DNA of 24,144 nt from a virus. Of this stretch, positions 45 through 22,740 are shown piece after piece; the first letter of the stretch is position 1; every line of letters starts with the position of its first letter. The notes under the pieces are model-generated. The model did not search any database and was not told the origin of the DNA. It saw nothing but the letters and a program-made list of their open reading frames with translations. The stretch spans positions 1 to 24,144 of IMG/VR virus record IMGVR_UViG_3300046673_000071, one strand, 5' to 3'. The translations under genes were made by a program, and so were the position numbers.

Positions 45-61
45 ATAAGTCTCCTTTAATC

Positions 62-212
62 TGGTGGGTAGGGCAATTAAGTGTTACCACGCTCTTAATC
101 CGCAAGGCAGTTTCCACCTCTCATCGCACCTCACCAAGCTGCTGTAGATAGGGGTGTGCATGCCGAGTCCTATCCTTCTCTGCGTGTCCATTTCCACGCC
201 GCCTACCCACCA
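62..212 (-). ncRNA. Multibranched RNA-like module L1 in the minus-strand leader
   Basis: An 11-bp perfect inverted repeat (TGGTGGGTAGG at 62-72, CCTACCCACCA at 202-212) closes a region of about 130 nt. Inside are further complementary arms: 76-81 with 94-99 (ATTAAG/CTTAAT), 147-152 with 169-174 (GATAGG/CCTATC) and 182-186 with 195-199 (GCGTG/CACGC). This gives a cloverleaf-like fold. The same closing stem and flanks recur at 240-320 around an unrelated interior. A 30-codon ORF on the minus strand (121-213) starts inside the stem, but its Shine-Dalgarno spacing is only three bases. The orientation is inferred from the minus-strand promoter. I do not recognise a known RNA family. Confidence 0.4.
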
Positions 213-239
213 TTTACTCCTGTTTATTTTCCGCTAATC

Positions 240-2410: not shown

Positions 2411-2572
2411 ATGAGTCTAACATTACCAACATGGGACAAAGTAAGTGACAAAATAGATCATAGCGAAAAACTAAATCCGCTTGAACAGTTTATTTATGAT
2501 AATGAACCAGCAGAAGATGACGAACAATGGCGGGAATCGTTGGAACTTGCAATAGAATACGTTACGCAATAG
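2411..2572 (+). CDS. Acidic hypothetical phage protein (53 aa)
   Basis: ATG 2411 behind AAGGAAAA. The product runs MSLTLPTWDKVSDKIDHSEK and continues as an acidic helical protein ending SLELAIEYVTQ, with a Glu/Asp-rich stretch in the middle (NEPAEDDEQW). Its size and style match the many uncharacterised early phage proteins, and no domain is recognised. A promoter for the next unit begins 33 nt after its stop. Confidence 0.6.
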   Translation: MSLTLPTWDKVSDKIDHSEKLNPLEQFIYDNEPAEDDEQWRESLELAIEYVTQ

Positions 2573-2604
2573 AGCGACCTGAAATACCCCCGTGTAAATA
2601 ACTC

Positions 2605-2633
2605 TTGATTTATATATCTAGTTAGGGTATAAG
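2605..2633 (+). promoter_or_regulatory. Promoter A of the leader-ORF unit
   Basis: -35 TTGATT (2605-2610), 17-bp spacer, -10 TATAAG (2628-2633). The sequence CTCTTGATTTATATAT around the -35 is identical in promoter B at 4310. The predicted transcript starts at about 2640, immediately before the Shine-Dalgarno-containing pairing strand at 2642. Confidence 0.65.
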
Positions 2634-2641
2634 ACATCTCA

Positions 2642-2747
2642 GGCGTAAGGTAAAAAATGTTAACTATTACAATTAAAGCCATTAAGAGAGCCGTTCAGAA
2701 GTCTGGGCATCCTTGCCCACCTTACGCCACTGGACGGTTCTTTTTTT
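2642..2747 (+). promoter_or_regulatory. Leader unit A: SD-sequestering pseudoknot plus terminator
   Basis: Three pairings lie between promoter A and the methyltransferase gene. Strand a, GGCGTAAGGT (2642-2651), holds the ribosome site of the small ORF and pairs perfectly with ACCTTACGCC (2719-2728) inside that ORF. Strand b, GAGCCGTTC (2688-2696), pairs with GGACGGTTC (2732-2740), followed by seven T (2741-2747), an intrinsic terminator. Hairpin c is TGGGCA/TGCCCA with loop TCCT (2704-2719). Pairings a and b cross, giving a pseudoknot. All three are kept in unit B with different sequences. An attenuator coupled to leader translation is inferred. Confidence 0.65.
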
Positions 2748-2788
2748 GGCGAATGAGGATAAATGAACGATCTTGTAACAATAGATAG
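2657..2788 (+). CDS. Leader-type small protein A (43 aa), read through a terminator
   Basis: ATG 2657, six to seven bases after AAGG. Residues 9-21 (IKRAVQKSGHPCP) align without gaps to residues 9-21 of the small protein at 4364 (IKGSIEKAGYPCP), so both the ORF and its start are supported by a paralogue. The terminator stem and its seven T are translated (the T-run gives FFF). The frame continues 26 nt into the methyltransferase gene, so translation of the two is probably coupled. It may be a true leader peptide whose translation decides read-through, a small regulator, or both. It is not a family I recognise. Confidence 0.6.
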   Translation: MLTITIKAIKRAVQKSGHPCPPYATGRFFFWRMRINERSCNNR

Positions 2789-3701
2789 TTATTGCCAATT
2801 AGAAAAAACAAGCCTTAGATTTAAAAGGGAAGTTTCTAAAGATGAATGGATGCACGTTTTTAAATCATTAAAAATGGTTGAGGGATGTGTCCAGTTCTGG
2901 CTTGGCGACTGTTTGGCATACCGGCAACAAAAATGGGGTATGTATGATGATGTTGCGGAAGAAGTCGGAATTGATAAAGGCACATTAAGTAATTTAAAAG
3001 CTGTAGCAGAACGCGTAGAAAAGCCATTACGTAATGGCAATTTGTCTTTTTCTCATCATCAACAAGTAGCATATCTTCCATCCGACAAGCAAGAAACCTT
3101 CTTAAAAAAAGCCGTTGATGAAAAATTAAGTGTGCGTGAATTAAGAAACGAAATTAAAAAAGATAATCGCCCGATTAATGAAAATCTACCTAAGGGAAAG
3201 TATCAGGTGATTTATGCCGATCCTGCCTGGCAATACAATGACACTTGCGAAAACGGTGCTATACAGAGTCGCGGGGTTGATGATGTATATTTACAAACAA
3301 TGTCTATTGAGGAAATATGTGCTCTTTCTGTTAACGATCTTTCCGACATTAACTCTGTTTTATTTATATGGGTTACGTCACCTTTTTTGGAAGAGGTTTT
3401 TACGGTTATAAATGCTTGGGGTTTTAAATATAAAACCTCTTTTGTCTGGGATAAGATTAAACATAATATGGGGCATTATAATTCCGTAAGACACGAATTT
3501 TTATTAATAGCTACAAAAGGTTCTTGTACGCCCGACAATCTTAAACTCTTTGATAGTGTTCAGAGTATTGAAAAAACGGAACATTCCAAAAAACCAGAGG
3601 AGTTTTACAATATAATAGAAACACTGTACTCTGGGAAAAAAATAGAATTGTTTGCAAGGAATAAAAGGGATGGATGGGATTATTGGGGTAATGAAAAATG
3701 A
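2763..3701 (+). CDS. MT-A70 adenine-N6 DNA methyltransferase with N-terminal HTH region
   Basis: A 312-residue protein predicted to methylate adenine N6 in DNA using S-adenosylmethionine. The N-terminal half resembles ParB/KorB-like DNA-binding regions, with a helix-turn-helix pattern at about residues 61-85 (YDDVAEEVGIDKGTLSNLK). The C-terminal half is MT-A70: YADPAWQYND at about residue 150 is the catalytic motif, with DPAW instead of the usual DPPW, followed by LFIWVTSP and RHEFLLIATKG typical of the fold, and KKPEEFYNIIE. ATG 2763 follows GAGGAT. It sits behind leader unit A and overlaps the nuclease gene by ATGA, so the pair may act together in modification and restriction or in self-protection. 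Confidence 0.85.
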   Translation: MNDLVTIDSYCQLEKTSLRFKREVSKDEWMHVFKSLKMVEGCVQFWLGDCLAYRQQKWGMYDDVAEEVGIDKGTLSNLKAVAERVEKPLRNGNLSFSHHQQVAYLPSDKQETFLKKAVDEKLSVRELRNEIKKDNRPINENLPKGKYQVIYADPAWQYNDTCENGAIQSRGVDDVYLQTMSIEEICALSVNDLSDINSVLFIWVTSPFLEEVFTVINAWGFKYKTSFVWDKIKHNMGHYNSVRHEFLLIATKGSCTPDNLKLFDSVQSIEKTEHSKKPEEFYNIIETLYSGKKIELFARNKRDGWDYWGNEK

Positions 3702-4144
3702 ATGCCTATTATCAAGAGAAACTTAAACAAGGGTTATATTATCAGGATTTTGTAATTGAGGAACTTTATAAAATAGGATTGCCTTTGATATCGTATTCCT
3801 CTAAAGAATTTCAGGTCTTAATTGGTGAAAACAAGGCTGGACTAGAAATAAAAAATGATAATAATTATAAAAAGACTGGTAATTTATATATAGAAACAGC
3901 AGAAAAATCCACCGAAGCAAAACTCAATTATTATCCTTCCGGCATCTTTCGTAATGACAACACGTGGCTTTATCTTATCGGAGACATGGAACGAATATTT
4001 ATCTTAAGTAAAAAACAATTAATTTTATTATCTAAATCTAATAAATATAAAACAGTTCAAATTGCCACTTCGCAAGGATTTCTTTTACCCGTAAACGAAG
4101 CGGAAAAACATTACGCTATTAAAATTATCGAGTGTAAAAAATGA
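3698..4144 (+). CDS. PD-(D/E)XK-like endonuclease (148 aa)
   Basis: The start ATG overlaps the methyltransferase stop (ATGA), so the two are co-translated. The segment AGLEIKNDNNYKKTGNLYIE followed by TAEK fits a PD-(D/E)XK nuclease core: an acidic residue and Lys in E-I-K, then a conserved TGNLYIE strand. An upstream acidic helix (QDFVIEELYKIG) would complete the fold. The rest (SGIFRNDNTWLYLIGD, RIFILSKKQL) is beta-rich. Phage proteins with this TGNLYIE pattern are usually annotated as restriction-endonuclease-like. Its coupling to a methyltransferase suggests a small restriction-modification-like pair or host-DNA degradation. The family is by motif; the substrate is unknown. Confidence 0.6.
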   Translation: MNAYYQEKLKQGLYYQDFVIEELYKIGLPLISYSSKEFQVLIGENKAGLEIKNDNNYKKTGNLYIETAEKSTEAKLNYYPSGIFRNDNTWLYLIGDMERIFILSKKQLILLSKSNKYKTVQIATSQGFLLPVNEAEKHYAIKIIECKK

Positions 4145-4263
4145 GCAAAGAAACTTTCTATTTTCCACATGACTACGATTCTACAAGCGATCCCAAAATG
4201 CAGGCGTTCATCGGAATAGCTGGACAGACTTATTTTGATGCGCGCCCAAACCGTAAAGAATAA
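4141..4263 (+). pseudogene. Truncated DUF4373-like replication-initiation fragment
   Basis: A 40-codon ORF coupled by ATGA to the nuclease gene. KETFYFPHDYDSTSDPKMQA matches the N-terminus of DUF4373 (Lin1244/Lin1753-like) phage replication proteins, which begin with a YFPHD-type motif followed by D-x-K and normally continue for 200 or more residues. Here the frame breaks off after GIAGQTYFDARPNRKE. The following bases code for a possible detached helix (WKEYWLKELE) before promoter B. The most likely explanation is replacement of an old replication gene by the primase cassette that follows. A short functional domain is less likely. Confidence 0.5.
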
Positions 4264-4309
4264 CCAACAATGGAAAGAATATTGGCTGAAGGAACTTGAA
4301 TAATATCTC

Positions 4310-4338
4310 TTGATTTATATATAAAAAGAGAGTAGGAT
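4310..4338 (+). promoter_or_regulatory. Promoter B of the leader-ORF unit
   Basis: -35 TTGATT (4310-4315), 17-bp spacer, -10 TAGGAT (4333-4338). The 16 bases CTCTTGATTTATATAT match promoter A exactly while the -10 differs. The predicted start is near 4345, just before the pairing strand at 4349. Confidence 0.55.
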
Positions 4339-4348
4339 GTATTTTGGC

Positions 4349-4452
4349 TGGGGAGTCATCTAAATGGAAAAATCAAAAGGACAGCGCATTAAAGGGTCGA
4401 TAGAGAAAGCAGGGTATCCATGCCCGGCTCCCCACTTTATCGGCCTTTTTTT
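4349..4452 (+). promoter_or_regulatory. Leader unit B: SD-sequestering pseudoknot plus terminator
   Basis: Same order of pairings as unit A but with different bases. Strand a, TGGGGAG (4349-4355), contains the ribosome site and pairs with CTCCCCA (4428-4434). Strand b, GGTCGATAGAG (4395-4405), pairs over 11 bp with CTTTATCGGCC (4435-4445), followed by seven T (4446-4452). Hairpin c is GGGTA/TGCCC with loop TCCA (4412-4425). Keeping crossed pairings with changed sequence is covariation support for the pseudoknot. It lies between promoter B and the primase gene and so probably controls replication gene expression. Confidence 0.65.
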
Positions 4453-4465
4453 GCGCGAAAAATAG
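4364..4465 (+). CDS. Leader-type small protein B (33 aa), read through a terminator
   Basis: ATG 4364 lies eight bases after GGGGAG. Residues 9-21 (IKGSIEKAGYPCP) match small protein A position for position. The terminator U-run is coded as part of GLFLREK. The TAG stop ends two bases before the primase ATG at 4468, and the primase has no strong ribosome site of its own, so primase translation probably depends on ribosomes finishing this ORF. It is basic at the N-terminus, with a conserved G-[HY]-P-C-P core. It could be a regulatory leader peptide or a small functional protein; the family is unknown. Confidence 0.6.
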   Translation: MEKSKGQRIKGSIEKAGYPCPAPHFIGLFLREK

Positions 4466-4467
4466 AT

Positions 4468-6117
4468 ATGGGTAACGTATTGTTAGAAACCGCGTTAGAA
4501 TATTGCGATCTGGGATTTTCGGTCATACCTATCTGGGAAGGGCAAAAAAAACCCACTAAAATAAAAGAGTGGACTCCCTACCAGACAAAAAGAGCCGATA
4601 AAAACCAGATCACGCAATGGTGGACAAAATGGCCTAATGCTAACATTGGCCTTGTCACGGGAAAAGTATCAAATCTATTTGTTGCTGATCTTGACAGATA
4701 TAAGAAAAACTTTGATGATGAAATAGCATTACAATTCTTTCCTGACTCCCTTGTAACCGCAACATCACTTTCTCCCCAAAAAGGAGAGCACCTTTACTTT
4801 TCATATCCCGATAACTTCGACATAGGCGGTAGATCACATGGAGACATATCAATAGATTTTCGCTCAGAAGGTAATTACATTATTGCACCACCATCCATCA
4901 ACGGAAACGGAACCGCTTATCAATGGGTCAACTCAATTTTTGATACGCCGCTTGCCGCCGTCCCGACGCAATATCTTTTATATATAAATAAATACATATA
5001 TAGAGATGTAGACAATTCTAAAAATAATAGTCTACAAAGTCAACAAACGTCTACAAGTGACTACAACATGTTTCGGCAAGGAAATAGAGATCAAGACATT
5101 TTTCACATTGCAAATCAACTGGTAATTTCACGGACACCGGAACAAGAGATAAGACAAGTAGTCAGTATTCTTGCAAAAAACTGTAATCCACCTTTCCCAG
5201 AAAACGAAATTGAAACAAAAATTATGTCTGCTTTGAAGTTCGGAGAAAAGCGAGATCACACTTTAGCACAAGAAATTAAGGATTGGCTTTGTCCACAAAG
5301 CGGCACAATAAATCTACAAAGTGTCTATAATCATCTACAACTGACTACAAGACAGGATAAAAAGAACGCTTCTATCATTTTAAAGAGACTTTCTGAAGGG
5401 GAAGATCGTATTTTAGATAAAGAGCCGGGGGTTGTGGGGAATTATAAAATAATAAATAAAAGTTTAAAGAGGATTAACCTTGCAGACACGTCAGATTTAA
5501 TAGGAGACCTCCCGATTGATTTTCCCTTGGGAATAGAAAAGTTTATAAAGCCGATGCCGGGATGTGTTTATGTTATAGCTGGGGAAACAGACAGCGGAAA
5601 AAGTGCCTACTTAATAAATTTTGCCAAGAAAAATGTAGATCGCTATAAAGTTCATTATTTTAGCACAGAAATGGGAAAGGCTGAATTTTTAGATAGGACA
5701 ACCGATTTTTGGCCTGAAGCACCGACACACCCACATTTTAATTTTTACGAACATTACGAAGATTTCGAACAGGTTTTATTTCCTAATGATATTAATATTA
5801 TAGACTATCTTGAATTGTTCGAAGATTTTTATAGGATGGCTGGTCATATTAAGAAAATTGGAATGGCGTTGAAAAACGGTATTGCCTTTATTGCTTTACA
5901 GAAACCAAAAGGCAGAGATGAGGGTGAAGGCGGAGAAAGAACTAAGAATTTACCCAGATTATATTTATCTTTAAAACCTAACAATATAAAAATAACTAAA
6001 GCAAAGAATTGGAGAAACTCTAAAATTAATCCCAATAAATTAGAACAGGATTTCAAGTTGATTAATGGACTGAAGTTTATTGGTTCAGAAAAATGGGAAA
6101 GGAGAGATGACGAATGA
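4468..6117 (+). CDS. Bifunctional primase-polymerase / RecA-like ATPase (549 aa)
   Basis: A replication protein joining a primase-polymerase domain to an ATPase. N-terminus: GFSVIPI, KKP, WWTKWPNANIGLVTG, then VADLD with catalytic D74 and D76, GEHLYF, and FRSEGNYIIAPPS, the hallmarks of the Prim-Pol family. Residues of about 205-275 (FRQGNRDQDIFHIANQ onward) resemble the primase C-terminal PriCT region. A Walker A, GETDSGKS, starts at residue 372 and a Walker B-like INIID ends near 446, giving a DnaB/RecA-like motor. The start at 4468 follows the leader-peptide stop by two bases; longer readings would begin inside the hairpin of unit B. The 4-nt overlap with the next gene implies co-translation. 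Confidence 0.85.
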   Translation: MGNVLLETALEYCDLGFSVIPIWEGQKKPTKIKEWTPYQTKRADKNQITQWWTKWPNANIGLVTGKVSNLFVADLDRYKKNFDDEIALQFFPDSLVTATSLSPQKGEHLYFSYPDNFDIGGRSHGDISIDFRSEGNYIIAPPSINGNGTAYQWVNSIFDTPLAAVPTQYLLYINKYIYRDVDNSKNNSLQSQQTSTSDYNMFRQGNRDQDIFHIANQLVISRTPEQEIRQVVSILAKNCNPPFPENEIETKIMSALKFGEKRDHTLAQEIKDWLCPQSGTINLQSVYNHLQLTTRQDKKNASIILKRLSEGEDRILDKEPGVVGNYKIINKSLKRINLADTSDLIGDLPIDFPLGIEKFIKPMPGCVYVIAGETDSGKSAYLINFAKKNVDRYKVHYFSTEMGKAEFLDRTTDFWPEAPTHPHFNFYEHYEDFEQVLFPNDINIIDYLELFEDFYRMAGHIKKIGMALKNGIAFIALQKPKGRDEGEGGERTKNLPRLYLSLKPNNIKITKAKNWRNSKINPNKLEQDFKLINGLKFIGSEKWERRDDE

Positions 6118-9302: not shown

Positions 9303-9926
9303 ATGACCAAAGCAGTAAAGAAATCACAAAATCAACAAAAAGGAAAATCCAAGAGAAAAGCTAAATCTTCCGCCATAAATGGGTTAAAAGGTGGTCGTCC
9401 CGTTTTATTTAAAACAGTGCGTGAGCTTCAAGAGAAAATTGATGAATATTTTGATTCCTGTTGGATTGACAAGGTTGTTGAAGTTACTGATAAAGAAGGC
9501 AATGTTACGGCGACTAATAGTCGGTACCAGAATCAGCCATATACTATGATGGGGTTAGCCTTAACTCTTAATATGAGCAGAGAAACTTTATGTCAGTATA
9601 GTAAAAAAGATAGGTTTTCGGACGCTATAAAAAAGGCGCGGCGAAAAGTTGAAATGAATGTTGAGGAATATTTATTAGCAGGTAAGAACGCGGGCGGTCC
9701 TATCTTTTGGCTAAAGAATAATGCAGAGACGCCTTATCGTGATAAACATGAGGTTGAGCAGTACGGCCCTAATGGCCAGCCTTTGGAGGGTAATACGGTT
9801 AATATCAATATCACACCCATGGAGCTGGCGGTAAAGATCGCCTATGCTCTACGGCACCGAGACGATAAACAAGATCTGAAACAAATAGAAGTGACTGCTG
9901 GGGAAAATGAAACACAACGAGATTAG
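9303..9926 (+). CDS. terS: Terminase small subunit (207 aa)
   Basis: DNA-recognition subunit of the packaging motor. A basic N-terminal tail (KGKSKRKAKSS) is followed by GGRPVLF, an oligomerising helical region, and a helix-turn-helix at residues of about 80-100 (YTMMGLALTLNMSRETLCQY). Then AGKNAGGPIFWLKNNAETPY, a conserved segment of these small terminases, comes before a C-terminal tail. It starts one codon after the MqsA-like gene and overlaps the large terminase gene by 20 nt, which supports the assignment. It binds the packaging site and loads the large subunit. Confidence 0.85.
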   Translation: MTKAVKKSQNQQKGKSKRKAKSSAINGLKGGRPVLFKTVRELQEKIDEYFDSCWIDKVVEVTDKEGNVTATNSRYQNQPYTMMGLALTLNMSRETLCQYSKKDRFSDAIKKARRKVEMNVEEYLLAGKNAGGPIFWLKNNAETPYRDKHEVEQYGPNGQPLEGNTVNINITPMELAVKIAYALRHRDDKQDLKQIEVTAGENETQRD

Positions 9927-11442
9927 TGCTTTAACTAGATTAATAAACCAATTACCGGAAGCAGAGAGGCAAAGCCTAGCTAAGACGGTGGTTCCCAACC
10001 TCCCGATATGGACGCCACTTCCCGGGCCGCAAGAGGACGCCTATAATTGCAAGGCGGATATTCTTTATTACGGCGGCGCTGCCGGCGGCGGAAAGACGGA
10101 TTTGCTTCTTGGAGTGGCTTTAAACCAATCATGGAAGTCAATAATCTTCCGGCGCCAAGCAACGCAACTTTTAGGTATTCAAAACAGGCTTTTGGATGAT
10201 ATTCTTAAATCCCGTAAAAGCTGGAACGGACAGGACGATATATTACGATTTCCAGATACCAGGCAGATTGAGTTTGGGAGCTGTAATGTTATTGGGGATG
10301 AAATAAAATATCAGGGGCGCCCGCATGACTTTATCGGATTTGATGAAATTCCTCATTTTGCTGAATCACAATTCAGGTTTCTTATTGGGTGGTTGCGTAC
10401 CACGATACAAGGTTTGAGGTGCAGGGTAATATGTTCTGGCAATCCTCCAACAGACCCGGAAGGAGAATGGATTGTTAAGTATTGGGCTCCATGGCTAGAT
10501 CCTATTCATCCTTTCCCGGCGGAACCCGGAGAATTGCGCTGGTACGCGATGATTGACAGCGTAGATACACCGGTCGAAAGCGGCAGCCCGTTTTTTCACA
10601 AAGGCGAGCTAATTAAACCTCAAAGCAGAACCTTTATCCCCTCCCGTGTTGAAGATAATCCTTTCTTAATGTCAACGGGCTATCAGGCACAACTTCAATC
10701 CCTGCCCGAACCGCTACGCTCTCAAATGCTAAAGGGAGATTTCAGCGCCGGGAAGTCTGATAATGTGTTTCAGGTTATCCCTACTGGCTGGGTAGAGCAG
10801 GCGATGGCTAGGTGGAAACCGGAAGGTCAGACCGGTCCCATGGATTCCCTTGGCGTTGACGTGGCGCGCGGCGGTGCTGATAAGACGCAATTAGCTCCCA
10901 GGTACGGCACATGGTTTGATCATGTTAAATCCTTTCCTGGGTCAGACACGCCAAATGGACAGATTGTCGCTGGATTGATTGTCGCGGAGCTTCGGGACGC
11001 GGCGCCTATTCATATCGATATTGGTGGCGTAGGCGGCAGCCCTTACGACTTTTTAAAAGAGAATGGCGTGCAGGTCGAGGGAATTAACAACGCCGAAACA
11101 GACCGGTCAAAGGACCAGTTTGATAAGGCAAGCGGCCAGATGAAGTTTCGCAACAACAGATCGTTTTTGATGTGGCGCTTTCGTGAGGCATTGGAGCCGG
11201 TGAAGGGTGAGAACTTGGCATTGCCGCCGGATAGTGAGTTAAAAGCCGACTTATGCGCGCCGCGGTGGAAGCTGACGGCCAGCGGTATCCTGATTGAAAG
11301 CAAGGACGAGATAAAGAAACGGATCGGCCGGAGCCCGGATAAAGGCGACGCAGTTATTCTGGCGTCTATTGCCACGGTCAAGTTAAAACAACAGCACAAA
11401 AAGGATTTCCGCCGGAGCGGTGGAACTTGGAGGAGCAGATAA
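9907..11442 (+). CDS. terL: Terminase large subunit (511 aa)
   Basis: ATPase-nuclease that packages DNA into the prohead. The Walker A motif GGAAGGGKTD begins at residue 56 and the Walker B FIGFDE ends at 147 with the catalytic Glu. A coupling motif SGNPP follows. The RNase H-like nuclease domain has an acidic residue at D318 in LGVDVARGG, HIDIGGVGGSPYDFL and a final KGDAVIL. The length is usual for the family. The start lies inside the small-subunit gene. It packages into the shell formed by the portal and the intron-bearing capsid gene further right. Confidence 0.95.
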   Translation: MKHNEISALTRLINQLPEAERQSLAKTVVPNLPIWTPLPGPQEDAYNCKADILYYGGAAGGGKTDLLLGVALNQSWKSIIFRRQATQLLGIQNRLLDDILKSRKSWNGQDDILRFPDTRQIEFGSCNVIGDEIKYQGRPHDFIGFDEIPHFAESQFRFLIGWLRTTIQGLRCRVICSGNPPTDPEGEWIVKYWAPWLDPIHPFPAEPGELRWYAMIDSVDTPVESGSPFFHKGELIKPQSRTFIPSRVEDNPFLMSTGYQAQLQSLPEPLRSQMLKGDFSAGKSDNVFQVIPTGWVEQAMARWKPEGQTGPMDSLGVDVARGGADKTQLAPRYGTWFDHVKSFPGSDTPNGQIVAGLIVAELRDAAPIHIDIGGVGGSPYDFLKENGVQVEGINNAETDRSKDQFDKASGQMKFRNNRSFLMWRFREALEPVKGENLALPPDSELKADLCAPRWKLTASGILIESKDEIKKRIGRSPDKGDAVILASIATVKLKQQHKKDFRRSGGTWRSR

Positions 11443-11561
11443 TGAAACGGATATTTGCATTATTATTGTTGATTGTGGTACTAACGGCGGCAGGAGATAT
11501 AACGATTTGCCATACAGATTGCGACGATGAAGGCAAGCACTGCACGACAATTTGCTTTTAG
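11442..11561 (+). CDS. Short secreted Cys-rich peptide (39 aa)
   Basis: The ATG overlaps the terminase stop (TAATG) with GGAGG upstream. The N-terminus MKRIFALLLLIVVLTAAG is a signal peptide or membrane anchor. The mature part (CHTDCDDEGKHCTTIC) has four Cys in 16 residues, suggesting disulfide bonds or metal binding outside the cytoplasm. There is no lipobox Cys directly after the hydrophobic core. The function is unknown; small exported phage peptides often act in lysis timing or superinfection exclusion. Confidence 0.55.
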   Translation: MKRIFALLLLIVVLTAAGDITICHTDCDDEGKHCTTICF

Positions 11562-19060: not shown

Positions 19061-19257
19061 ATGGGACAGACTATCATTGGTCTGAACGACGCTAAGGCCG
19101 TCAAGAGATACTCCGGAAATCTTGCGGTCGACGTCGGCAGAAAAGGTTATTGGACACGGAAGTTTATGGGCAAGGGCGAAGTCCCGACCAAACCGATCTG
19201 GCAGATAACCGATTTGGAATCGGATGCCGGAGAACAGATCACTTACGATTTATCGAT
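19061..19257 (+). CDS. Capsid exon 1
   Basis: Encodes MGQTIIGLNDAKAVKRYSGN through residue 65 plus two bases of codon 66. It ends in TCGAT; the last T forms the U-G pair at the 5' splice site with GTCG at 19267-19264 inside the P1 hairpin. Without splicing the frame continues 14 codons into the intron (LTSRLAARAALNN) and stops at 19300. Confidence 0.8.
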
Positions 19258-22200
19258 TTTAACGAGTCGCCTTGCTGCGAGAGCAGCATTGAATAACTAA
19301 GAGGATTGAAACTATGCTTCTCTTTTTAGTCTTTTGAGGTCGTCGATAATGGTTAAGTCAGCAGCAGTTGCAAAATATTTTTTCACTTTACAGGATTTGG
19401 AAAGAAATTCCATCACCCGTAAAGCTTCTGGCTTTTTGACGACTAAATACCTAGAAAGGATTGTGAGAAGTTTTAATAAACTTCGCTTTTTCCAAACAAC
19501 AATTCTTTCCGCAGGTCGTGTGCTAAGTTTGTGTAGTACGGTGGGGAGCCGTCGATATTCGACTCCTTGCATTATGAAAAACGTCTCTAATTCATCAATC
19601 ATGCGCTTCGAAACAGATTGGACATCCAATTTAAGCATCACAGTCGTATGCCCAGGCTTGAGACACTTCCCATATATGCAACCTTCTCCATCAATAATTC
19701 CAGCTATCCAAGCTATTTGGCACATTTTAAAGACCTCCATTTACTATGAGTATATACATAGTTTTGGATTAAAAGTCAAGCATATTCTGGAATCCCCTGA
19801 GAGCCTCAATTACTACAACGTAGCTGGCAACGGCAGGCGTGAAAGTGAGAAAAACATTGAGGATTGGGCAACCAGCAGCCGAGCGACCATGAAAATGGCC
19901 GAAGGTTCGACGGTCATCCCGGAAGGGAGTAGGGGCAAGCGTCCCGAAGCACTTAGCATCCAAAACATGGATGATGATATGACCTATTCTTTATCGAAAG
20001 ATAAAGCAGCCCGTTAGGGCGGAGATTAAGTAGCGAATAATCTCGAATACAATGGCAGTTAAATATGCAGCCGGTCGAAGGTGATTCCGAGTTACACGGA
20101 AAAGAGGAAGGCTTGAGTTTTTATACTGATGAAATATATCGTCAGGCTTATGCGCAAGCGTAAGTACAAATTCTAGGTGAATTGCTGGAACGGCCGAAAA
20201 TTATGAATACTACAACGCAAAATGAAAATTTAAACGTGAAAGTCCAAAAAATTCATAAAAAGAGTTGCAATTTGGGAAATATAGGCGTATGTAAAATATA
20301 TAGACCAGATTTTTCAAAGGAGGCTCTTATGGCTAATCAGCAGCCAAGTCTAATAGGGGAAAAAAGAAATTGCAAAAAATGCGGCGAAACCAAACCAATA
20401 AATGATTTTCCTGTTTCTGATGCTAAGCGGGGATATCGTCGGCATATATGCAATATTTGTGAATCACAGCGTAAAAAAGATTATTATGGCGATCACTATA
20501 TGGAAACGAGAGAAAAGCAAAATAAAAATGCTAAACTGAAATATAATAGTGATCTAGAAAGCCATCGTAGTCAAGGGGCAGAATGGGCAAGACATTACCG
20601 TGAAATATATAGAGAAAAAGTATTCAATTTTTACGGTAACAAATGCGCATGTTGCGGAGAAACTGAGCGGGTATTCCTGACAATCGATCATAAAAATAAC
20701 GATGGCTATACCGCTAGAAAAGAAAAACTCCATCCCCGTGATTCAGCAGGTTTCTATCGTTGGTTAGTAAAACATGATTTTCCGGCAGAATTTCAAATTC
20801 TTTGCATGAATTGTAATTTTGGAAAATCAAGAAACAACGGTATTTGCCCCCATGAGAAAGGTTCAACGACTATCTCGAAAGAGAGTACAGCCAAGCGGCT
20901 GGAAGTGCCTAGCTCCCAAGTGGGATGAAGATATAGTCTGGCCTCATGGGAAACCATGAGCAGCCCGAAAGGGCGGTTTGAGAGTAGCGAACTCAAGCGA
21001 ACATAAGCGAATGTTTACGTTGATCAGATGCGCGGTGGCGCCGATTGCGGCGGAAGAATGACGCGTAGTTTCGATTGCGCCGTAGCACAGCAATGTGCTA
21101 TGATAAACGAGGTTAATTGCTGGGAACCCCGACTGGCTTCATAAGCCAAGGGCAATCAGCAGGGAAGCGGTTAAAATGCGGAAAAGAATAACACACGGAA
21201 GAGACATCAACCATCATGAATTCCCTCACGGAGAGTTCAGGGGCTATCGCGCCGGTTGTAGGTGTTTGCCTTGTAAAAGGGCAAAAGCTGACTACAACTT
21301 AAAGCAAAAAGGTGTTGATGTACCGAAATTCAGGAAACTTCTGGGAATTACTCCTGATCATCCTGATTTTCCGCATGGAACAAGAACAGGTTATAAATAT
21401 TGCCATTGCGAGTTATGCAGAAAGGCAAATAATCTGTATAAAGTTCCCTTGAATAATGTCTGGAGAAATAACAACCCAGAAGCAAAAGAAAGTAAAAAGG
21501 CTCTCGATGCGGCTTATAGACAAACGGCCATTGGTCACGCAAATAAAAAGGCCAGCCACGCAAAAAGAAGGTCTTTGAAAAAAGCCCAAAATACTTGCGC
21601 TTCTGCGGATATGAAATTATTGAATTTGATTTATCTACTTTGCCCCGAAGGTTATCATGTTGACCATGTAATGCCTTTAAGCAAAGGCGGAGAGCATCAT
21701 CCTAATAATTTACAATACCTCCCGGCCATTATAAACCTGAAAAAGAGGAATAACGAGAATTTTGATTGTTCATCCTATATCATCAGGTGGCAAGATTTAA
21801 CTGAACCTTCATCGACTAGAGCGGAAGCTCGTACAGCCAAGCGGCTGGAAATGCCTCGAATCCTTAGCGATAAGGATTGTGATATAGTCAGGTCTGCATA
21901 GTAATATGCAGCAGCCCGGAAGGGCGGTTTGAAGTTAGCGACTTCAAGCGAACATAAACGAAAAGAACTCTTCACGATCTGCGCAAGATCGCAAGAGCCA
22001 GGTCTATTGACTGGTGGGCAAGGGTATTTGACGAGATCATTATGATGTATCTCGCCGGCTCGCGCGGAACTAACACCGAATTTGTATTTCCTACGACTTA
22101 TTCGGGGTTTGCCAACAACAACCTTACGTCTCCGGATTCGAATCATATCGTTTACGGCGGCGTGGCAACTTCGAAGGCAAGTTTGGCGGCAACCGACAAG

Positions 22201-22740
22201 ATGTCGACTCTTCCTATCGACCGCGCAGTAGCTTACGCGGAAATGATGGGCGGTGGCGGTCCTGCTTATTCCGAAATCCCGCAGATCCAGAAATGCGAAG
22301 TGGACGGCGAAGAGCTGTTCCTGATGGTCATTGATCCTTACCAGAAATTTGACCTGCGCAGGAATACCACCACGAATGATTGGGCGGATATACAGAAAGC
22401 AATCGCGACCGCGGTTGGCAAAGATACCCCTTTCATCAAAGGTGGAATCGGTATGTGGAACGGAGTTATGCTCCATTCGCATCCAAACATCATCCGGTTT
22501 ACCGATTACGGCACCGGTGCGGTGAGTGCTTCCCGCGCGTTGTTCTGCGGTATGCAGGCAGGTGTTATCGCCTTTGGTTCTCCTGGCCAGGATTTACGTT
22601 TTGGCTGGAATGAAGAGACGCGCGACAATGGTAACAAAGTCATCATCACAACCCACACCATTTGGGGATTCAAGAAAGTTACCTTCAATGGTAACGATTT
22701 TGGCGTGATGGCGATAGACACGGCCGCAACCAGACCGTAA
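19061..22740 (+). CDS. Major capsid protein, N4-gp56 type, split by three group I introns: join(19061-19257,20055-20130,21010-21066,21961-22740)
   Basis: The four exons join without frame errors into 1110 nt (369 residues). The family core runs across the junctions: GEQITYDLSMQLNMQPVEGD, then ELHGKEEGLSFYTDNVYVDQ, MRGGADCGGRMTRKRTLHDL and RKIARARSIDWWARVFDEII. This aligns without length change to N4-gp56 capsids (VEGD, EE-L-S-F, D-Q-x-R, GGRM, R-x-x-D-WW). Junctions fall in codon 66 (after two bases), after codon 91 and after codon 110. AAAGGGAGG precedes ATG 19061. Unspliced RNA would give only a 79-residue product ending at 19300. Junctions come from ribozyme pairings and frame, and each could be off by a base. 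Confidence 0.85.
19312..19725 (-). CDS. LAGLIDADG homing endonuclease, antisense in intron 1 (137 aa)
   Basis: A single-motif LAGLIDADG enzyme, which would act as a homodimer. IAGIIDGEG (residues 7-15) is the motif, with E14 as the expected catalytic acid. Downstream, the saddle-type strands and helices (TTVMLKLDVQSVSKRMIDEL; RPAERIVVWKKRSLLKLL) and a final IIDDLKRLKREA fit the family. The start is ATG at 19725, seven bases after GGAGGT; the ATG at 19740 overlaps that ribosome site and is rejected. It is transcribed against the capsid gene from its own promoter at 19751-19779. It probably cleaves intronless capsid genes. Confidence 0.8.
   Translation of the reverse strand: MCQIAWIAGIIDGEGCIYGKCLKPGHTTVMLKLDVQSVSKRMIDELETFFIMQGVEYRRLPTVLHKLSTRPAERIVVWKKRSLLKLLTILSRYLVVKKPEALRVMEFLSKSCKVKKYFATAADLTIIDDLKRLKREA
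19751..19779 (-). promoter_or_regulatory. Minus-strand sigma70 promoter for the intron-1 endonuclease
   Basis: On the minus strand: TTGACT (19774-19779), 17-bp spacer, TATATA (19751-19756). It lies just upstream of the LAGLIDADG ribosome site. It would give the homing enzyme its own transcript, independent of capsid mRNA and splicing. Confidence 0.6.
20055..20130 (+). CDS. Capsid exon 2 (76 nt)
   Basis: One base of codon 66, then 25 codons (QLNMQPVEGDSELHGKEEGL, SFYTD). It contains the conserved VEGD and EE-L-S-F-Y segment. It ends in ACTGAT, whose CTGAT pairs with GTCAG at 20141-20145. Confidence 0.8.
20131..21009 (+). ncRNA. Group I intron 2 (879 nt)
   Basis: P1: CTGAT-GA ... TC-GTCAG (20126-20145) with a U-G pair at the splice site. 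P2: CTTATGC-GCAA-GCGTAAG (20147-20164). P-like GAATTGCTGG near 20180. R-like GGTTCAACGACTATC (20860-20874) pairs with S-like GATATAGTC (about 20929-20939). The final 50 nt are nearly identical to those of intron 3. It ends in G21009. An intact Q element was not located with confidence, so the P4-P6 fold is unresolved. It encodes an HNH endonuclease. Confidence 0.75.
20329..20928 (+). CDS. HNH homing endonuclease in intron 2 (199 aa)
   Basis: The start is ATG 20329 with AAAGGAGG upstream; longer in-frame readings begin in the ribozyme. The N-terminal zinc ribbon NCKKCGETKPINDF with HICNIC comes first. Then a basic helical region, and an HNH core: KCACCGETERVFLTIDHKNN with IDH as the first His, and FQILCMNCNFGKSRN as the N-H half and second Cys pair. 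The last 25 or so residues (SKESTAKRLEVPSS) are coded by ribozyme core sequence, including R. It probably cleaves intronless capsid genes. Confidence 0.8.
   Translation: MANQQPSLIGEKRNCKKCGETKPINDFPVSDAKRGYRRHICNICESQRKKDYYGDHYMETREKQNKNAKLKYNSDLESHRSQGAEWARHYREIYREKVFNFYGNKCACCGETERVFLTIDHKNNDGYTARKEKLHPRDSAGFYRWLVKHDFPAEFQILCMNCNFGKSRNNGICPHEKGSTTISKESTAKRLEVPSSQVG
21010..21066 (+). CDS. Capsid exon 3 (57 nt)
   Basis: Nineteen codons: NVYVDQMRGGADCGGRMTR. It holds the family D-Q-x-R and GGRM motifs. It ends in ACGCGT; GCGT pairs with GCGC at 21077-21080 with the U-G at the splice site and a UUCG loop at the tip of the extended hairpin. Confidence 0.8.
21067..21960 (+). ncRNA. Group I intron 3 (894 nt)
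   Basis: P1: GCGT-AGT ... ATT-GCGC (21063-21080). P2: TAGCACA-GCAA-TGTGCTA (21083-21100). P-like GTTAATTGCTGGGA (21112-21125) and Q-like GGCAATCAGCAGGG (21151-21164). R-like CATCGACTAGA (21810-21820) and S-like GATATAGTCAG (21881-21891) make P7 GACTA/TAGTC. Ends AACATAAACG with G21960. The 26 nt at 21831-21856 and the last 50 nt match intron 2 closely. The clearest core of the three. Confidence 0.8.
21176..21901 (+). CDS. HNH homing endonuclease with two zinc-finger-like repeats, intron 3 (241 aa)
   Basis: Two similar N-terminal modules: EFPHGEFRGYRAGCRCLPCK and DFPHGTRTGYKYCHCELCRK, each H-G-x-x-x-GY-x4-C-x-C-x2-C, probably DNA-binding. The HNH core follows: GYHVDHVMPLSKGGEHHPNN and LQYLPAIINLKKRN. 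It is unrelated to the intron-2 enzyme except for the C-terminal RTAKRLEMP, which is coded by shared ribozyme sequence. The coding region covers both the R and S elements, so translation and splicing compete. ATG 21176 follows AGGGAAGCGG, a weak ribosome site. Confidence 0.8.
   Translation: MRKRITHGRDINHHEFPHGEFRGYRAGCRCLPCKRAKADYNLKQKGVDVPKFRKLLGITPDHPDFPHGTRTGYKYCHCELCRKANNLYKVPLNNVWRNNNPEAKESKKALDAAYRQTAIGHANKKASHAKRRSLKKAQNTCASADMKLLNLIYLLCPEGYHVDHVMPLSKGGEHHPNNLQYLPAIINLKKRNNENFDCSSYIIRWQDLTEPSSTRAEARTAKRLEMPRILSDKDCDIVRSA
21961..22740 (+). CDS. Capsid exon 4 (260 codons including stop)
   Basis: Begins KRTLHDLRKIARARSIDWWA and contains the rest of the HK97-like or related shell fold (DEIIMMYLAGSRGTNTEF, then PTTYSGFANNNL). 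The C-terminus has IVAF-type segments (CGMQAGVIAFGSPGQDLRFG) and VITTHTIWGFKK typical of the family end. Annotating it as a separate gene from Met 22042 would lose 27 in-frame codons of conserved sequence. Confidence 0.85.
   Translation, partial: KRTLHDLRKIARARSIDWWARVFDEIIMMYLAGSRGTNTEFVFPTTYSGFANNNLTSPDSNHIVYGGVATSKASLAATDKMSTLPIDRAVAYAEMMGGGGPAYSEIPQIQKCEVDGEELFLMVIDPYQKFDLRRNTTTNDWADIQKAIATAVGKDTPFIKGGIGMWNGVMLHSHPNIIRFTDYGTGAVSASRALFCGMQAGVIAFGSPGQDLRFGWNEETRDNGNKVIITTHTIWGFKKVTFNGNDFGVMAIDTAATRP

Follow-up and report, generated by a model that had tools for sequence, protein, structure and literature searches.

The leaders that we report here have their closest described counterparts in the following systems. 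The RepY-RepZ system of IncI/IncB plasmids: here a leader peptide and a pseudoknot control translation of the replication gene, translation of the peptide being coupled to it via an RNA rearrangement, with an antisense RNA taking part. The pyrBI attenuator of E. coli: this has its terminator inside the leader open reading frame (ORF), the ORF runs on toward the gene, and termination is the default (PMC4824070). The phage leaders P4 CI RNA/seqA and Gifsy-1 IsrK: these feature a terminated short RNA alongside a read-through mRNA, self-complementary segments and a small ORF coupled to the gene that follows it; the genes that P4 controls in this way, by premature termination via seqA/CI pairing, are its replication genes, and IsrK is both the terminated RNA and the read-through mRNA (PMC4825925). 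The c4-icd-ant system of P1/P7 (Rfam C4): here the start of a small ORF is targeted by a complementary RNA from the same transcript (NC_005856 annotation).

Two leaders, units A and B, were found in a tailed-phage fragment of 24,144 bases (IMG/VR record IMGVR_UViG_3300046673_000071), the whole of which is called the window below. They would share the above features of pyrBI, P4/IsrK and C4, and with RepY-RepZ a leader peptide whose translation is coupled to a replication gene by rearrangement of the RNA, and they depart from each system in a distinct way: unlike in pyrBI, the terminator loop pairs with the Shine-Dalgarno sequence (SD) itself, and what follows is a gene for phage replication or for a methylase; unlike RepY-RepZ, they have a built-in intrinsic terminator; unlike C4, they have a terminator loop pairing, which P1/P7 lack; unlike P4, in which our detector finds no order with a complementary arm in the terminator loop, they are accompanied by no lysogeny genes that we could see. 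At the gathering score, Rfam, including its P4/IsrK/C4 group, gave no match in the window or in three further phage loci treated below (L022, L061 and L089); a weak-threshold search of window positions 2500-4600 returned unrelated chance matches only. A metabolite riboswitch is not indicated either: besides the missing Rfam match, there is no conserved aptamer and almost no shared sequence outside the A/B pair. Each leader holds a single unit and the downstream genes encode a methylase and a primase, which does not match a type III toxin-antitoxin (ToxI) system, where tandem pseudoknot repeats precede an endoRNase gene. The literature, as far as it was covered, yielded attenuators, IsrK/P4 and pyrBI, and none with this topology.

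The window and its genes

The window encodes a P22-type portal protein, a ParB/MT-A70 methylase and a Prim-Pol primase, and its terminase has its nearest relatives in phages of Limnohabitans and others. The genes behind the two leaders are:

2763 to 3701, plus strand, ParB-HTH/MT-A70 methyltransferase gene, downstream of unit A (Pfam PF05063, E=3.4e-24; PF17762)
4468 to 6117, plus strand, primase gene (Prim-Pol, with a DnaB-like C-terminal part), downstream of unit B (Pfam PF09250, E=3.8e-33)

The primase start at 4468 is supported by the Prim-Pol domain, which begins at residue 9; no SD precedes this ATG, and the reading frame stays open 5' of it up to an ATG at 4420. Immediately 3' of the MT-A70 gene lies a 148-residue protein (3698-4144; PHROG 13596), and the same pair is found in L089 (43% identity), which marks it as a conserved methylase partner. 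Elsewhere in the window, the major capsid gene (Phage_capsid_3; 19061-22740) is in two pieces, N-terminal (19061-19300) and C-terminal (22042-22740), with HNH-like and other ORFs intervening. This is possibly the outcome of several introns or homing endonuclease insertions; an Rfam intron match was looked for in the capsid region and none was found.

Anatomy of the two leaders

Unit A (2605-2763) lies ahead of the methylase gene and unit B (4310-4468) directly 5' of the primase gene. The earlier note on this DNA had claimed a common architecture, and the order of parts is indeed identical in the two: a promoter, an arm a with the ribosome-binding site, the ATG of a leader peptide, an arm b, an inner hairpin, the arms a' and b', a U-run and the gene.

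Unit A:
2602 to 2633, plus strand, promoter-like sequence: TTGATT (2605-2610), 17 nt, TATAAG (2628-2633)
2642 to 2651, plus strand, arm a (GGCGTAAGGT), containing an AAGG SD
2657 to 2788, plus strand, leader ORF of 43 residues, open through the terminator into the methylase gene
2684 to 2698, plus strand, arm b
2704 to 2719, plus strand, inner hairpin TGGGCA-TCCT-TGCCCA
2719 to 2728, plus strand, arm a' (ACCTTACGCC)
2730 to 2747, plus strand, arm b' and U-run (T at 2741-2747)

Unit B:
4307 to 4338, plus strand, promoter, called by sigma-70 resemblance only: TTGATT (4310-4315), 17 nt, TAGGAT (4333-4338)
4349 to 4357, plus strand, arm a (TGGGGAGTC), containing the GGGGAG SD of the peptide
4364 to 4465, plus strand, leader ORF of 33 residues (MEKSKGQRIKGSIEKAGYPCPAPHFIGLFLREK), ATG at 4364, open through the terminator
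4391 to 4405, plus strand, arm b, the 5' arm of the terminator
4412 to 4425, plus strand, inner hairpin GGGTA-TCCA-TGCCC
4426 to 4434, plus strand, arm a' (GGCTCCCCA), directly adjoining b'
4435 to 4452, plus strand, arm b' (4435-4449) and intrinsic-terminator U-run (T at 4446-4452)

The 16-nt identity of the -35 regions was likewise borne out, CTCTTGATTTATATAT standing at 2602-2617 in A and at 4307-4322 in B, as was the placing of the peptide stop two bases ahead of the primase start (TAG at 4463-4465, ATG at 4468, that is TAG-AT-ATG).

The pairings and their covariation

A purpose-written detector, which scores the order a-b-hairpin-a'-b'-U, gives 73.5 for A and 64.5 for B, the maximum in 2.9 Mb of dinucleotide-shuffled window being 51.5. 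A third detector match in the window (61-225) consists of direct and inverted repeats with neither promoter nor SD and was rejected. This region, near the left contig end, carries TGGTGGGTAGG as a direct repeat in two copies with an inverted copy, CCTACCCACCA, in between (62-72, 202-212, 240-250), and looks like a repeat set rather than a leader.

For a/a', the 5' segment alone was shuffled with the rest fixed: the pairing was equalled in 0 of 20000 trials in A and in 83 of 20000 in B (p=0.004). The two units have thus kept this pairing while rewriting it from GGCGTAAGGT/ACCTTACGCC in A to TGGGGAG(TC)/(GG)CTCCCCA in B, and arm a covers the SD in both despite wholly different letters. The b/b' helix has 15 pairs in each unit once its A/U tail is counted, so that the earlier claim of a lengthening from 9 to 11 bp falls away and that of new bases stands: seven pairs are unchanged, two are changed on one side, six on both sides and none is broken. 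With the 3' arm of B in random order, the full b/b' pairing arose in three of 100000 shuffles. The inner hairpin was said to have changed in the same manner, which overstates the case. Its three G-C pairs and closing A-U pair are identical in A and B, a C-G has become U-G and one end pair is lost; this helix is nearly unchanged and not covaried, and a change with the pairing kept holds for a/a' and b/b' alone.

The order of pairings in A and B exceeds chance. It could still be argued that the units are merely a duplicated stretch in which common ancestry accounts for the likeness and the pairings are fortuitous: there are just two copies in one genome, and terminator-like sequences such as that of the inner hairpin, GGGCATCC-TGCCC, are common elsewhere. 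We hold this to be very improbable in view of the six of 15 b/b' pairs changed on both sides and kept, the a/a' pairing that is wholly new in B, the shuffle results and the independent leaders L022 and L061.

The leader peptide

The two peptides align without offset from their start codons onward, and the shared core at residues 9-21, I-K-x2-[VI]-x-K-[SA]-G-[HY]-P-C-P, was confirmed. Over the aligned stretch of 13 codons (ATT to CCA), A and B differ at 14 bases, distributed 6/0/8 over codon positions 1/2/3; the absence of any change at position 2 has P=6e-4 and makes coding selection on this stretch likely. The ATG-to-b distance is nine codons in both. Beyond P-C-P the frame shifts relative to b', the a' of B being two bases shorter than that of A, and hence the C-terminal halves are not codon-for-codon homologous. 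Neither peptide has a run of codons for a single amino acid before the terminator, as the trp/his type of attenuator would. Neither matches a PHROG or NCBIfam family, and tblastn gave no convincing match among 50,697 phage records. A search of viral contigs for the peptide motif joined to a U-run, much as the earlier note had suggested, gave nine matches, all of them ordinary GGGCATCC-type hairpins; G-H-P-C-P by itself is therefore partly a by-product of the hairpin.

A promoter of its own, an SD, a conserved peptide core and a terminator are also what an ordinary small gene would possess, and the units could be duplicated promoter-peptide-terminator cassettes in which the protein is what matters and the terminator overlaps its 3' end. 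This we consider quite improbable. Neither leader ORF (2657-2788 and 4364-4465, both spanning the T-runs) has a stop ahead of the U-run. The terminator precedes the stop codon, so the terminated mRNA would be non-stop and could not give the whole peptide, which read-through RNA alone can supply; this fits an attenuator rather than a small gene followed by a terminator. The small-gene reading also leaves unexplained why the SD should be complementary to the terminator loop, and the lack of a known family or convincing homologue weighs against it.

A proposed attenuation mechanism

The reading that we favour, tentatively and with somewhat less than even confidence, is that A and B form a pair of leader-peptide attenuators, driven by separate promoters and placed before the methylase and primase genes. 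An ORF with a ribosome-binding site spans an intrinsic terminator before the gene, as is expected of a translation-coupled attenuator, and the leader looks like a real element and a candidate on/off switch for phage replication genes. RNA polymerase would make in turn a (with the peptide SD), the ORF, b, the hairpin, a', b' and the U-run. Should a' emerge before any ribosome has loaded, it would pair with a and hide the SD; b' would then pair with b, and transcription would end, making termination the default (OFF) state. An early ribosome close behind the polymerase would instead cover b and a', so that the terminator is blocked and the polymerase enters the gene; the ribosome would halt at the start codon of the gene, or close to it, and hand translation over. 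In B, where TAG-AT-ATG leaves a two-base gap and the primase is without its own SD, such translational coupling of peptide and primase is plausible. The SD would be sealed about 70 nt after its synthesis unless a ribosome is already bound, giving an attenuator with a deadline. Sequence and computation show the anatomy, the pairings, the overlap of a with the SD, the open frames and the recurrence in other phages; termination in vivo, its relief by translation, the coupling, the signal that is read and the direction of control are inferred.

Folding of the growing transcripts of A and B in a pseudoknot-free model is consistent with this order of events: a:a' is the earlier pairing (P about 0.98), and b:b' displaces it once about two-thirds of b' has been made. 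Intrinsic terminators can be suppressed by translating ribosomes, and the terminator within the pyrBI leader gene is a known case; in E. coli, those located in the first 100 bp of a coding sequence usually escape suppression, since the ribosome lags, the exception being polymerase pausing (PMC4824070). As terminators so placed normally work unless the polymerase pauses, the expected default of the leaders is OFF, a point that also counts against relief of termination by translation.

The same topology in other phages

Because sequence searches gave no homologue of either leader, we turned to the topology itself and scanned about 4.2 Mb of DNA from viruses, phages and genomes for it, requiring a suitably spaced promoter. 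The order recurs in L022 and L061, with L089 as a weak third:

L022, 1002 to 884, minus strand, leader with TTGACA-TAGAAT, 14-bp a/a', b, hairpin, a', b' and U6 (topology scan)
L061, about 2566 to 2667, leader with TTGACA-TAGAGT, 13-bp a/a', b/b' and U8 (a/a' equalled in 1 of 20000 shuffles)
L089, 1861 to 1987, leader with a strong promoter and 19-bp b/b' (a/a' alone, p=0.07)

None of the three shows DNA similarity to the window. Combined scores are 87 for L022, 79.5 for L089, 77.5 for A and 67.5 for B, against a maximum of 60 in 3 Mb of shuffled loci; L061 reaches 62.5, but there the scan picked the wrong arm a, and its support is the direct a/a' shuffle test. L089 is a probable member of the set, given that its a/a' alone is not significant. 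Supporting an attenuator, the order stands ahead of the same kinds of genes: the L061 leader lies about 20 nt ahead of a ParB/MT-A70 gene of the same kind as that behind unit A, and the L022 leader lies 366 nt upstream of a zinc-finger primase (PHROG 47, E=4e-18). The L089 leader precedes an operon of an MT-A70 gene, the partner protein akin to window 3698-4144 and a DnaB-type helicase (named from sequence). The gap between leader and primase in L022 (520-880, minus strand) holds repeated ATCGTGCAAT-like motifs, direct and inverted, which resemble origin iterons.

With b as the anchor, the peptide alignment is IKRAVQKSGHPCP (A), IKGSIEKAGYPCP (B), ISKTLVGAGYLAN (L061) and IKTSGGKSLP (L022), and in all four b opens with a lysine codon in frame, which in L061 follows an additional A. 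The L061 peptide, I-S-K-T-L-V-G-A-G-Y, is in register with b and B-like, A-G-Y being in register; that of L022 retains only I-K-T-S-G-G-K-S and is hardly similar, and L089 has only a 9-codon ORF. A motif scan that returned exactly A, B and L061 (3/3) is not independent, the motif having been written after L061 had been seen. Outside the window genome the fold is, as far as these comparisons go, better supported than the peptide. The earlier proposal that a coding and a folding layer are retained together accordingly holds for A against B, by the covariation of the fold and the codon pattern; elsewhere the fold is clear and the peptide partial. The note had named relatives that keep the fold and break the frame as the mark of an element acting by RNA only, and L022 and L089, which keep the fold with little peptide, go part of the way toward that.

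It is indeed possible, if rather unlikely, that the peptide is incidental, that a:a' is an antiterminator anchored at the 5' end or half of a pseudoknot, b:b' being the terminator, and that the choice between them depends on some protein, RNA or elongation rate. The recurrence of the fold in L022 and, weakly, in L089 speaks for such a switch. Four of the leaders (A, B, L022 and L089) have a' directly next to b' and an a-to-b spacer of 30-33 nt, which suffices for a stacked pseudoknot; in the fifth, L061, a' shares several bases with b', which makes the two pairings mutually exclusive, with a:a' the more stable in the model. The spacer of L061 is just 10 nt, and a constant spacer of 30-33 nt was dropped as a defining feature. 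This short spacer and the a/a' value of L089 count against an RNA-only switch, as do the 6/0/8 codon-position pattern and, in both units, the SD inside a, the equal ATG-to-b distance and the ORF open through the terminator. As to the attenuator reading, passage of a ribosome through b' would not be general: the L061 ORF ends inside the hairpin, and the ATG of L022 is at the extreme 5' end, without an SD.

Another alternative, which we regard as improbable, is a trans-acting RNA akin to P4 CI RNA/IsrK. The terminated leader (b-hairpin-a'-b', about 60 nt) would accumulate, and its exposed a' would pair with a of new transcripts and keep the operon off; a and a' would diverge freely because each system is its own target. 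In agreement with this, a lies at the 5' end, the loop of a terminator hairpin holds its complement, replication genes follow, and the pairing letters diverge completely between units; the P4 and IsrK precedents described above point the same way. Against it, the detector finds no such order in P4, P1 (first 50 kb), P22 or lambda. No integrase or resolvase match is seen in the window, L089 (41.8 kb), L061 (43.4 kb) or others, five records that are possibly fragments, which leaves lysogenic immunity without support.

Searches for closer relatives

Leader DNA of A, B, L022, L089 and L061 gave no convincing match among the 50,697 phage records, and close homologues that would permit dN/dS or within-family covariation were not found. 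The promoter 16-mer has 52 matches in 2.9 million viral contigs, none with a leader there, and a specific DNA pattern search gave one match; both results were set aside as chance. Near relatives by primase, terminase and methylase were checked and yielded no leader homologue. Among them, L131 (IMGVR_UViG_3300046697_000030) has a terminase 100% identical to that of the window; its contig stops 2.2 kb upstream of the terminase and hence does not cover the leaders. L265, with a 62% identical methylase, has no unit of the A/B kind. A Bacteroidetes-type promoter block is repeated there (9900-9960 and 11470-11560), flanking this closest methylase relative, with a short ORF (one being MNTEVKFVKICPHRDKSREGCQWVALLPLGFLIFCGGFIL) after each block, a leader arrangement built differently. 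The methylase loci of 1180 bacterial genomes hold no such unit except for a riboswitch-like leader in L327 (minus strand, 3100-3290; TTGACA-TATATG and a terminator). It looks like a manganese-type (yybP-ykoY) riboswitch; the detector thus also responds to riboswitch expression platforms. Detector matches in L178, L166 and L110 lie within coding regions and were rejected as chance.

Implications

The A/B leaders may be a variant of leader attenuation whose topology was not met in the literature covered, and a class defined by topology is a possibility. More tentatively still, and with doubt on our part, they could belong to a widespread, undescribed class of phage early-operon leaders without fixed sequence, in which the 5' arm a pairs into the loop of an intrinsic terminator and a' abuts b', and which would make replication-gene expression a now-or-never decision, via ribosome loading or a terminated RNA acting in trans. 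Such leaders would be invisible to sequence-based RNA searches because topology alone is conserved. If this holds, a translation-gated terminator would stand at the entrance of phage replication and methylase operons and would offer a new handle on the timing of phage replication. It would also be a compact natural design, with SD masking, termination and start-codon hand-over in about 110 nt.
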